Assembly: GCF_014960965.1 (NCBI RefSeq)
Contig: NZ_CP063169.1
Location: 2,079,581 to 2,143,580 of the forward strand
Direction of reading: 5' to 3'
DNA: 64,000 nt
Source of the DNA: Ruania alkalisoli
GTDB taxonomy: Bacteria > Actinomycetota > Actinomycetes > Actinomycetales > Beutenbergiaceae
Shown: positions 24,913-29,330 of the stretch, in pieces
How the letters are laid out: each line of letters begins with the position of its first letter
How positions within the stretch are numbered: the first letter of the stretch is position 1
Program-made: the position numbers and the translations under genes
Notes under the pieces: generated by a model
Told to the model about the DNA's origin: nothing
What the model saw: only the letters and a program-made list of their open reading frames with translations
The model's database searches: none

Positions 24913-24926
24913 GGGGCGAAAGTCCC
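24913..24926 (-). promoter_or_regulatory. DosR/DevR-like box 1 (P-type ATPase promoter)
   Basis: On the minus strand the site reads GGGACTTTCGCCCC, close to the mycobacterial DosR core (GGGACTWWAGTCCC and its GGGACTTTSGNCCC variants). It lies 36 bp upstream of the ATPase start and points toward it. Supported by two similar sites nearby and a DevR orthologue about 4 kb away; binding is inferred. Confidence 0.6.
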
Positions 24927-24970
24927 GCTGTGACGTCAAGGAGGTACGCCGCGGGTGTCTACTTCGTCAC

Positions 24971-24984
24971 GGGACCAATGGCCC
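24971..24984 (+). promoter_or_regulatory. DosR/DevR-like box 2 (GyrI-like/USP promoter)
   Basis: GGGACCAATGGCCC on the plus strand, 56 bp upstream of the GTG at 25040 and pointing toward it. Same degenerate core as boxes 1 and 3 (GGGACYWWNGSCCC). Confidence 0.58.
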
Positions 24985-25039
24985 TTTCGCTGCCCTTGCT
25001 GTGGGCGTTGCCTGGTCATGACGGCGAAAGGAGCCACTC

Positions 25040-25528
25040 GTGGATGAGATCCGTCTGATGGAGGTAGTTGAGCAACCTGTCGCGGCGGTGCGTGCAAGAG
25101 TGCCTGTCGAAGACTTGTCTCGCTGTATCGAGCAATCGCTGCGGACAGTACTGGCCAGCGTTTCCGCTCGCGGAGCGCGCACAGCGGGACCGCCCTTCGC
25201 TCGGTATCGAGCGGTGGCCGCCGACGCCGTGGATGTCGAGATCGGGTTCCCCGTCGATCCCGTGGTGGAGGACTCAGGGGAAGTCATTTCGTCTACGCTT
25301 CCCGCCGCGCGCGTCGTCGAGGCGATACACCGAGGCCCCTATGACCACCTTGCTGGTGCGTACGCCGAGATAGAGCGCTGGATGTTTGACCACCACCTGA
25401 CTCCCTCTGAGGAGATGTGGGAGGTCTATGAAGCGGGCCCTGAGTCGGATCCCGACCCGAACACCTGGCGTACCCGCATCGTCTGGCCGACAGTGGCGCT
25501 GATGCTGACAGAGAGGAATCCATCATGA
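25040..25528 (+). CDS. GyrI-like/effector-binding domain protein
   Basis: A 162-residue single-domain protein of the GyrI-like (AraC/BmrR effector-binding, SOUL-related) fold. Supporting blocks are the N-terminal VEQPVAAVRARVPVEDLSRCIEQSL, the central FARY...VDVEIGFPV strand and the characteristic LPAARVVEAIHRGPYDHLAGAYAEIERWM, ending with EMWEVYEAGPESDPDPNTWRTRIVWPV-like sequence (quoted in parts). Such stand-alone domains bind or hydrolyse hydrophobic or electrophilic ligands; the ligand here is unknown. AAAGGAG lies 6 nt before the GTG. It overlaps the following stress-protein gene by 4 bp and has a DosR-like box upstream. Confidence 0.8.
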   Translation: MDEIRLMEVVEQPVAAVRARVPVEDLSRCIEQSLRTVLASVSARGARTAGPPFARYRAVAADAVDVEIGFPVDPVVEDSGEVISSTLPAARVVEAIHRGPYDHLAGAYAEIERWMFDHHLTPSEEMWEVYEAGPESDPDPNTWRTRIVWPTVALMLTERNPS

Positions 25529-26028
25529 CCAGTCATGTTCCCGAGGCTACTGACGAGGACCGGACTACCGGTGAGGAGACCGAGTCCGGTCACACCCGAC
25601 CCGGCCGGGTCGTCGTTGGAATCGACGGTTCGAACGCCTCTCACGAGGCGCTCCGCCAGAGTGCCCATCTCGCGCGCGAGCTCGGTTACGACGTCGAAGC
25701 GATCGCCGTCTGGACCTCCACCCCCGTGACCCTGGGGGGTGTGTACCTCGATCTTCAGTGGGACCCAGCTGAGGATGCCAACCGTGCTCTGGACACTGCG
25801 GTGGGAGCGGTCTTCCCTGCGGGCCGCCCAGCCTGGTGCAAACTCACCTTGCGCGAGGGGAGGCCGGCAGAGGAACTGGTCGAGGCAGCGCGTGGTGCCG
25901 CCATGTTGGTCGTTGGACGACGCGGGCATGGCGGCGGCCTCGCTGCGCTGCTGCTGGGATCGGTCAGTTCGGCGTGTGTCTCGCACGCTCACTGCCCAGT
26001 GTTGGTCGTACCGGCTGAGGGGCAGTAG
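25525..26028 (+). CDS. Universal stress protein, single domain
   Basis: A 167-residue UspA-family protein. A hydrophilic acidic N-terminal tail (about 25 residues) precedes RVVVGIDGSNASHEALRQSAHLAREL, and the ATP-binding signature is LVVGRRGHGGGLAALLLGSVSSACVSHAHCPVLVV (quoted as seen, in two overlapping blocks). The ATG overlaps the stop of the GyrI-like gene, so both are expressed from the promoter carrying box 2. A strong hairpin follows between this gene and the convergent stress-protein gene. Confidence 0.9.
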   Translation: MTSHVPEATDEDRTTGEETESGHTRPGRVVVGIDGSNASHEALRQSAHLARELGYDVEAIAVWTSTPVTLGGVYLDLQWDPAEDANRALDTAVGAVFPAGRPAWCKLTLREGRPAEELVEAARGAAMLVVGRRGHGGGLAALLLGSVSSACVSHAHCPVLVVPAEGQ

Positions 26029-26893: not shown

Positions 26894-26925
26894 ACCATCG
26901 TCAGTCGCAGCGGCGCCGGCGAACG

Positions 26926-26939
26926 GGGCCTAGGTCCCG
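26926..26939 (-). promoter_or_regulatory. DosR/DevR-like box 3 (Usp / devS divergent promoter)
   Basis: On the minus strand the site reads GGGACCTAGGCCCC, 32 bp upstream of the minus-strand Usp start and 61 bp upstream of the devS-like GTG. In both box 1 and box 3 the plus-strand continuation GTCCCG-N2-GTGACGT is shared, hinting that the two promoters are copies of one module. Confidence 0.58.
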
Positions 26940-27000
26940 TGGTGACGTGTCGCGGGCGGTGGTACCGTGCAAACTCCGGAGCCTGAAGATCGGGACGAAC

Positions 27001-28674
27001 GTGCAGGTGCCACCGTTGGACGAACCGTACGGCCAGATCGACCGCTCGAGCACAGACTCGGAGGCGCGCCTACGCGCGCTGATCCGTGGGACCGACGCCG
27101 TGGTCTCCCATCTCGAGCTGCCGGAGGTTCTGCGCCGTTTGACCGAAGTCGCCGTCGAGTTGGTGGACGCTCGTTACGGTGCGCTGGGAGTCCTTGCGCC
27201 GGACGGGTGGCTGGAGGAGTTCGTGCATGTGGGCATGGATCCGGGCACAGTGGAGCGGATCGGTCGGCTGCCCGAGGGTCGCGGTGTGCTCGGTGCCTTG
27301 ATCACCAACCCGGAGCCGATCCGTCTGCAACACATCGCCGATGATCCTCGTTCGGTGGGGTTTCCGGACGGGCATCCGCCGATGTCGAGCTTCCTTGGTG
27401 TACCGATCCGCATCCGCGAAGAGGTCTTCGGCAACCTCTATCTGACGCAGAAGCGCGGGGGTGACTTCACTGACGAGGACGAGAGGCTGGTCAGGACCCT
27501 GGCGGCAACGGCTGCGATCGCGGTGGAGAACGCCCGGCTGTACTCCGCCGCCCGCGATCGAGAACGGTGGGCAGCGATCGGGGCCCACGTCTCTGCCGTG
27601 CTGACTGAGACCGGTACGGACGGCGTGCCTGCACTACTCGCCGATGCAGTGTTCGAGGAACTGGGCGCTGCTCGCGTCGCAGTACTCGAGCCAGGGGAAG
27701 AACCGCTGACAGCACGCATCATCGCCGCCAGGGGCACCGATGCAGCTCAATACAACGGCAGACTCCTCACGACCGAGGAGACCTCCGCCGTCCTTGTGCT
27801 CGAGAGCGGCGAGCCGGTGGCTCGTAGCGGTGCGACCACCGCGCTCAGCGATGCAGACGCCCTCGCGGTCCGGGACAGCACCGGTACAGGTCCGGTGCTC
27901 TTCGTCCGGTTCGCGCCCGCTGGGATCGAGCCGCTCGTACTCGCGGTGGGCAGGCAGCCGCGGGGCCGGGCGTTCGGGCGTTCGGAGATCGAGGCGGTCA
28001 CCGATGCTGCCGGTCGGATCGTTCTGTCCATGGAACTGGCCCAGGCGCGCGAGCAGCACCAGCGCATGCTCCTGAGCCAGGATCGGGCCAGGATCGCACG
28101 AGACCTGCACGATCGGGTGATCCAGCAGTTGTTCGGAGCAGGCCTTGAGCTGCACTCACTCGAAGGCTCAGTGCCGACGGCTGAGGCTGAGAGGCTGCGG
28201 ACTGCCGTCGATGCGATCGACGACGCCATCTCGCAGATCCGCACGATCATCTTCGCGCTCAGGGCGGTTGCGTCGGATCGACAGACACTGCGCCATCGGG
28301 TGCTGGACCTGGCGATCGAAGTCTCTCGTCACCTGCCTCGGAACGTCGATGTCGAGTTTGCCGGACCGGTGGACACTCTCGCTGGCAGTGAGATGGCTGG
28401 TGAGGTCATGGCTGTTGCGCGCGAGCTACTCAGCAATGTGGTTCGTCATGCCTGCGCAGAACACGTGCGCGTCGAGGTGCGAGCAGGAGGCCACCTGCTC
28501 GAGCTCGTCGTCGAGGACGACGGGGGCGGGATGGGCCTTGCGGGGCACAGGAGCGGACTGGCGAACATCTCGGAGCGAGCGCAGCGGCGCGGTGGCGACC
28601 TTGAGCTTCGTTCTGGCCCCGATGGCACGACCGCTGCGTGGCGGGTGCCACTGACGTCGGATGGTGCACGATGA
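27001..28674 (+). CDS. devS: DevS/DosS-like GAF-domain sensor histidine kinase
   Basis: A 557-residue cytoplasmic sensor kinase with two GAF domains (about 30-185 and 200-345), a HisKA_3 dimerisation domain with phospho-His370 in [16 protein letters not shown], and a C-terminal HATPase ([25 protein letters not shown]). GAF1 closely resembles the DosS heme domain: [16 protein letters not shown] places His125 opposite the DosS heme ligand His149, and Tyr147 in GNLYLT opposite DosS Tyr171 (from my recollection of that sequence). An O2/NO/CO or redox sensor is therefore likely. The GTG at 27001 is my choice of start; GTG 26959 or 27007 are alternatives. It is coupled to devR by an ATGA overlap. 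Confidence 0.88.
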
Positions 28675-29330
28675 TCCGCGTGTTCTTGGTGGATGACCAC
28701 GAGGTCGTCCGGCGCGGGATCGCCGACCTACTAGGGCGCGAGCACGACATCGAGGTAGTCGGCGAAGCGGCGAAGGTCGCCGACACACTGCCGCGCGTGC
28801 GCGCCGTTCGTCCTGATGTCGCGGTGCTCGACCTGCGCCTGCCTGATGGCGACGGGGTGGATCTGTGCCGTGACATCCGGTCGGAGTTCCCTGAGACGAA
28901 ATGCCTCATCCTGACTGCCTACGACGACGACGAAGCGGCCGTTGCTGCGGTGCTGGCGGGGGCCTCGGCCTACGTCGGCAAGAGCGTCGTCGGCTCCACT
29001 TTGGTGCGCGATGTCCGCCTCGTTGCGGGAGGCCGCTCGCTGCTGGACGGACGCGTCGCCCGGCACGTCGCCGAGCACGCCAGGCCGGTCGCACGGGAGG
29101 ATCCGCGCTATGACGCGCTCAGCCTCCGCGAACGTCAGGTGCTCGCACTCATCACCGAAGGGTTGACGAACCGGCAGATCGGCTCCCGGCTCGGGCTCGC
29201 CGAGAAGACGGTGAAGAACTACGCGACGAGTCTCTTCCTCAAGCTCGGGTTCGAGCGCCGTACCCAGGCGGCCGCGTTCGGCGTTCAGCAGAGTGAGGGC
29301 CTGAGGAGGCTGGGTCCGCGAGCCCCGTAG
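28671..29330 (+). CDS. devR: DevR/DosR-like response regulator (NarL/FixJ family)
   Basis: A 219-residue response regulator: receiver (1-120) plus LuxR-type helix-turn-helix (about 150-205). Phospho-acceptor Asp54 is in [10 protein letters not shown], the acidic pair is VDDHEVV and the conserved lysine is Lys104. The recognition helix [18 protein letters not shown] carries Lys179, Lys182 and Asn183, the same residues at the same numbers that contact DNA in M. tuberculosis DosR; the C-terminal ERRTQAA is also shared. With the adjacent GAF kinase and three DosR-like boxes, orthology in function is well supported. Confidence 0.9.

Follow-up and report, generated by a model that had tools for sequence, protein, structure and literature searches.

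A predicted DosR/OsdR-type stress module in Ruania alkalisoli and its putative operator, shared with a cyd-linked respiratory regulon

The window analysed here is a 64-kb stretch of the genome of the actinobacterium Ruania alkalisoli (64,000 nucleotides of contig NZ_CP063169.1), and it holds a group of stress-type genes beside a two-component system resembling DosRS of Mycobacterium tuberculosis. A sensor kinase gene (27001..28674, plus strand), encoding a DosS/DosT-like GAF domain, a predicted second GAF domain, HisKA_3 and HATPase, is followed by the gene for a NarL-type response regulator of the DosR clade (28671..29330, plus strand). Divergent from the kinase lies a universal stress protein (Usp) gene (26081..26893, minus strand; PF00582). 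Further on are a GyrI-like small-molecule-binding protein gene (25040..25528, plus strand; PF06445), a Usp gene that overlaps it by 4 nt (25525..26028, plus strand; PF00582), and the gene for a 641-aa heavy-metal P-type ATPase (22952..24877, minus strand; PF00122/PF00702, with TIGR01525 above cut-off). Two other genes adjoin the module, for a CoA-disulfide-reductase-like/rhodanese protein (20324-22012) and a two-domain Usp (22132-22971).

Three 14-nt DosR-type boxes stand before these genes. Box 1 (GGGACTTTCGCCCC; 24913..24926, minus strand) is 35 nt 5' of the P-type ATPase start codon (24877), and box 2 (GGGACCAATGGCCC; 24971..24984, plus strand) is 55 nt 5' of the start codon of the GyrI-like gene (25040), the first of the GyrI-like/Usp pair. 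Box 3 (GGGACCTAGGCCCC; 26925..26938, matching on the minus strand) occupies the spacer shared by the divergent usp and kinase genes, 31 nt from the usp start (26893) and 62 nt from the likely kinase start (GTG 27001), so that it could serve both directions. It was flagged as lying inside an open reading frame (ORF) because the kinase ORF had been extended beyond its likely start. All three are exact matches to the pattern given by the sequence-only reading, which placed the third one base off (26926-26939); that the boxes precede genes also stood, with the gaps given here in place of the 32-61 bp claimed. As a side observation, CGTCAC lies 0 or 3 bp before GGGAC at all three boxes (24927-24940, 24965-24970 and 26939-26950), and this flank is not kept in congener G002.

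Within its family, the regulator belongs to the DosR side. Its nearest solved structure is DevR (3c3w; E 2e-68, 233.5 bits), followed by VraR (3.2e-36, 128.4 bits), and in a tree of 53 rows it groups with M. tuberculosis DosR among 35 rows, which are separated from 18 sister rows by a branch supported at 100/100. The end of the recognition helix reads TVKNY in 30 of the 35 rows on the DosR side (three have KNH and two are untagged); every one of the 18 sister rows has TVKNH. D54 (the receiver Asp), K104, K179, K182 and N183, which had been put forward as a mark of DosR, are indeed present. The five residues are kept in 27 of 32 aligned rows, sister-clade regulators included, the other five rows being misread ORFs. 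The two lysines and the asparagine contact DNA in DosR; since they are found in both clades, they are not diagnostic for it. Among the 25 matches listed, no NCBIfam family is above cut-off for the regulator. The nearest named regulator among the protein matches listed, where close records may be missing, is from Agromyces humatus (65%). By clade, residues and the box before its putative target genes, the protein is classed from its sequence as a DosR/DevR/OsdR-type regulator, as had been proposed.

The kinase, judged by its sequence, is DosT/DosS-like, again as proposed. The best matches of its first GAF domain (GAF-A) are the heme GAF domains of DosT and DosS. In the alignment it keeps the equivalents of His149 and Tyr171 of DosS, which are heme-contacting residues, and it has Gly at the position of DosS Glu87, as in DosT. 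In the structure model of the kinase (mean pLDDT 81.8, pTM 0.56), GAF-A superposes on DosT/DosS GAF-A at 1.5-1.9 A with 50-63% identity for 14 of the 17 such chains among the best 50 matches, and the remaining three align at 8.6-8.8 A. The two best matches of the structure search by E-value are bacteriophytochromes, matched over long, loose alignments. Pfam reports one GAF region; in the model, GAF-like elements are also seen around residues 209-317, and tandem-GAF proteins, PDE5A for example, are among its matches. It is conceivable that the kinase senses redox state or another ligand instead of O2 or NO, which would make the locus a module for general stress. The His and Tyr do not fix the signal, since the second kinase described below and the other aligned GAF kinases have them too. 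Set against this are the 63% identity of GAF-A to the DosT heme GAF in the structural alignment and the presence of the same box at cydA and pta, and we regard such a general role as unlikely.

Could the three boxes be a product of chance or of post hoc fitting? The consensus was written from the three sites, and at up to two mismatches the window shows no excess (18 sites against 21.4 expected). The exact pattern was seen three times in the window against a mean of 0.02 and a maximum of 1 in 100 Markov resamples; 1 of 300 column-permuted patterns reached three hits, and none of 1000 had three hits inside 2030 bp. In the whole genome (4,448,695 bp, a single contig) it has four hits, all at most about 80 bp upstream of a gene, and three of them are the window boxes. 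Box 1 with the following base T fits the stringent DosR consensus GGGACTTNNGNCCCT, as quoted in PMC6448022, and the window boxes agree with this and with the published OsdR consensus, AGGGCCGATCGGCCCT (PMC5069765).

A matrix made from other genomes is the better test, because the consensus of the sequence-only reading had been fitted to the three sites. It was built from 98 non-coding (intergenic) sites, which came from 55 of the 91 loci considered around DosR-clade regulators; the host genome (G000) and its two nearest relatives, the congeners G006 and G002, contributed no site, and congener G005 supplied one of the 91 loci. The sites were selected by closeness to GGGAC-N-WW-N-GTCCC, so that the matrix is independent of the window, and not of the DosR consensus. 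With this matrix the window boxes rank 1, 3 and 4 in the 64 kb (scores 17.7, 16.0 and 15.7), and rank 5 scores 9.5. The second rank goes to a coding site, AGGACGATCGTCCC (58941-58954), which falls within the first part of a siderophore-interacting-protein gene, with a divergent histidine-kinase gene starting about 30 bp away; lying inside the former gene, it was judged a chance match.

Around the DosR-clade regulators, a box of at least 13/14 is found in 56 of the 91 loci, whereas 19 permuted-arm palindromes average 2.95 loci and reach at most 7. At 12/14 the contrast is weaker (83 of 91 loci; permuted mean 35, maximum 50). This tolerant count with permuted arms was used in place of a scan for perfect 5-mer dyads, which proved weakly informative: GGGAC-N4-GTCCC occurred in 13 loci against 0.7 expected, and seven other dyads were in larger excess. 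Usp relatives are over-represented among the genes linked to a box (29 of 143, compared with 45 of 1292 others; P 4e-12). Given the matrix from other genomes, the permutation tests of the pattern in the window, and G002, which has boxes at two of these three places, a chance or post hoc origin of the window boxes is very improbable.

The same box is found elsewhere in the host genome. The fourth exact match is about 80 bp 5' of a gene whose 186-aa product is a predicted membrane protein; this gene is preceded on the same strand by genes for an acyl-CoA thioesterase and a truncated globin. When position 11 is relaxed to any base, the genome has five exact sites, and the fifth, GGGACCTTCGTCCC, is a perfect box about 60 bp before cydA. 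It is one of the four that lie outside called ORFs among 44 one-mismatch hits, the other 40 being within them. Another box, GGGTCCTTCGTCCC (L267, G000:C1:1249683), is about 75 bp 5' of pta (phosphate acetyltransferase), and a weaker one (score 11.7) precedes a second small membrane-protein gene. The 186-aa protein has no Pfam match. Two small membrane proteins informally labelled 'DoxX-like' and 'LigA-like' have none either, and the first of them has no NCBIfam match. The palindrome RGGACNWWNGTCCY has five sites in the host: cydA, 58941, L290 (inside a gene), L293, which is 65 bp before a 237-aa gene that is ribosomal-looking by eye, and L294, again at 65 bp, in front of a 143-aa gene with a by-eye resemblance to the pyridoxamine-oxidase family. 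Of 21 host loci inspected for close variants of GGGACYWWNGTCCC, five have the variant outside called ORFs (cydA, pta, L263, L278 and L279).

The box at cydA leads to a second DosRS-like pair. About 9 kb from cydA, in the region G000:C1:2750000-2769999 near cydA-cydB, lie genes for a second DosS-like kinase (L135 14372-15982, plus strand) and a second regulator, RR2 (L135 17405-18049, minus strand), which has the same DNA-contact residues as the window regulator. The two genes that follow cydA-cydB we take, by their position, to be cydDC. The claim that the module is compact and self-contained thus had to be given up, as the box also precedes cydA, pta and two membrane-protein genes and the genome has this second pair. 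A regulator search of 59 genomes gave a match in 45, and a cydA search of 58 genomes found the gene in 54 (55 matches); in 24 genomes the matched regulator is within 25 kb of cydA, and those among the 24 that were placed in the tree belong to the sister clade, where they make up 11 of the 18 rows. Boxes were counted at 30 of the 55 cydA matches. A perfect box stands upstream of cydA in 16 of the 30 loci, one of at least 13/14 in 23 and one of at least 12/14 in 26, whereas 19 permuted-arm palindromes gave at most 0, 2 and 5, respectively.

Within the genus, eight congeneric genomes (G000 to G007) were compared, with ORFs in relatives called mechanically by frame GC score, and therefore some 'inside ORF' flags are over-calls. 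G000, G006 and G002 carry the window regulator at 79% identity or more, and G005 carries it at 55%. In G002, where the regulator has 79% identity, boxes precede both corresponding Usp units; the first gene of its Usp operon is a pyridoxamine-oxidase family member where the window has the GyrI-like gene. Box 3 is identical in G006 and has a variant at the same place in G002. No relative of the P-type ATPase was found in the examined 20 kb of G002, and box 1 is therefore without a counterpart there. In G006, the nearest congener, boxes 1 and 2 have one base change each; this genome was dropped as a footprint for its too high similarity (94%). In this genome (L061:13740-14100) the GyrI-like gene seems to be shortened internally, while the Usp start and the near-copies of boxes 1 and 2 remain.

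The boxes outside the module are spread more widely. A box scoring above 13 precedes pta in six of nine pta loci, those of G000, G001, G002, G003, G004 (13.6) and G006; G005 scores 8.6, and the two copies of G007 score 0.6 and 5.1. Of the six genomes with the second small membrane-protein gene, five have such a box before it. For comparison, the highest score among 900 shuffled 270-bp stretches was 13.6, and their 99th percentile was 9.9. At E 1e-5, matches to the 186-aa gene came from G000, G006 and G002 alone (box scores 17.9, 17.9 and 12.9), which are exactly the genomes with the window regulator at 79% or more. Congeners without a DosR-clade match still have boxes at cydA, pta or a small membrane-protein gene other than this one. 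Thus, boxes also occur in genomes that lack the window system, whereas the 186-aa gene goes together with it in this small set. In three loci (L142, L143 and L130, of G003, G007 and G005), tandem boxes exactly 23 bp apart lie before a small membrane-protein gene, perhaps for cooperative binding; the L130 copy of the protein has no Pfam match.

These distributions raise the question of which regulator reads the boxes. They might be read chiefly by the cyd-linked RR2, the window regulator having different or narrower targets and merely lying beside RR2 boxes. RR2 is encoded near cydAB and has the same contact residues. G001, G003, G004 and G007 have one regulator match each at E 1e-40, those of G001, G003 and G004 being RR2 orthologues (92, 67 and 71% identity), and all four carry boxes: at cydA and pta in G001 and G004, at pta in G003, and at the second membrane-protein gene in G001, G003 and G007. 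However, boxes cluster around DosR-clade regulators in many genera, and OsdR, itself of the DosR clade, binds such a box in vitro (PMC5069765). Moreover, G024, G030 and G039 have a single match at E 1e-40, which is on the DosR side, and carry non-coding boxes near regulator, kinase or Usp genes. That RR2 is the chief reader is, in our estimation, unlikely, and a little less probable even than a general stress role for the kinase.

We favour, with a probability of roughly 0.72, the reading predicted from sequence that a DosR/OsdR-type Usp module shares its operator with a cyd-linked respiratory regulon. Membership of the sequences, box positions, conservation and enrichment are the basis for it. 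The locus would be a DosRS/OsdKR-type two-component stress module. Its cytoplasmic kinase, which has a DosT-like GAF domain, probably binds heme and senses loss of O2 (or NO/CO), and would phosphorylate the DosR-clade regulator. The regulator would then bind the three near-palindromic boxes (GGGAC-N4-GNCCC) before the P-type ATPase gene, the GyrI-like/Usp pair and the Usp gene. Through the third box the kinase-regulator pair may also control its own expression. The direction of regulation is a prediction of this kind, as are heme binding, the signal, phosphotransfer and DNA binding, and we likewise infer the hypoxia/NO control that had been proposed for the module. The same operator would control a genus-level respiratory/fermentative set (cydA, pta and the small membrane proteins), probably via the second pair near cydAB. 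As both gene sets have it, the two systems would share the operator and probably overlap.

Several observations weigh against this reading. Exact boxes are few genome-wide, five against 14 for the backwards-read pattern, so that their count is not unusual, only their placement. Some non-coding near-matches (L263, L278, L279 and L293) precede genes that are not obviously stress genes, and the two stress-type genes adjoining the module have no upstream box by the matrix scan of the window. The cydA genes of G031, G033, G049 and G054 are without a box, as are the divergent cydA genes of G003 and G005, and G007 was left out of this comparison since its contig begins at cydA; cydA of G054 is regulator-linked, and linkage is therefore no guarantee of a box. 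The Streptomyces form GGGCC-N4-GGCCC is not over-represented around DosR-clade regulators (14 of 91 loci; one permutation reaches 20). Finally, the window regulator and RR2 cannot be told apart by their contact residues, and it might be mainly RR2 that reads the boxes.

The sharing of one operator suggests a history. Tentatively, and at somewhat under even odds, the operator in this actinobacterial order would belong first to a respiratory switch near cydAB, in which a DosS-like kinase and a sister-clade regulator drive the high-affinity bd oxidase and, with pta, the acetate pathway. The Usp module would be a later, optional addition, giving two clades, one operator and a two-input oxygen circuit. 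The cyd-linked pair would be the older because it is more widely spread in the genus.

DosR regulons have been described chiefly in mycobacteria, where they are known as a dormancy programme. The module is like M. tuberculosis DosR/DevR with DosS/DosT in regulator clade, contact residues, GAF-A residues and box core, and Usp genes are DosR targets in that species too, although the target set differs from its DosR regulon. Outside mycobacteria, DosR-type systems exist as OsdK/OsdR of Streptomyces coelicolor, which is like the window system in having a DosR orthologue, a similar palindromic box, boxes clustered at the regulator genes, and Usp genes and a pyridoxamine-oxidase gene among the predicted targets (PMC5069765). 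The OsdR consensus has C at the fourth position of the 14-mer, where the window boxes have A. The main text of that paper has no word starting with 'cyd', whereas here a cyd-linked sister system has the same box. In M. smegmatis, cydAB has been reported to be DevR-independent and outside the DevR regulon (PMC7739888), in contrast to the host cydA with its box, and papers on the DosR regulons of M. abscessus and M. avium have no main-text word starting with 'cyd' (PMC10034137; PMC11876180). In Corynebacterium glutamicum, HrrA binds upstream of cydABDC in response to heme (PMC7337898), and two-component control of cyd is therefore not new; HrrSA resembles the cyd-linked pair in this binding of a response regulator before cydABDC and differs in being heme-responsive. 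Searches of open-licence PMC papers, through listings that give the opening of each abstract, brought up no paper on a cyd-linked DosR-type pair with a DosR box. That many genera have a DosR-type box at cydA, and often a DosS-like kinase nearby, suggests that switching to high-affinity respiration may be one older role of the operator, and such a role gives a testable history of the dormancy regulon beyond mycobacteria.

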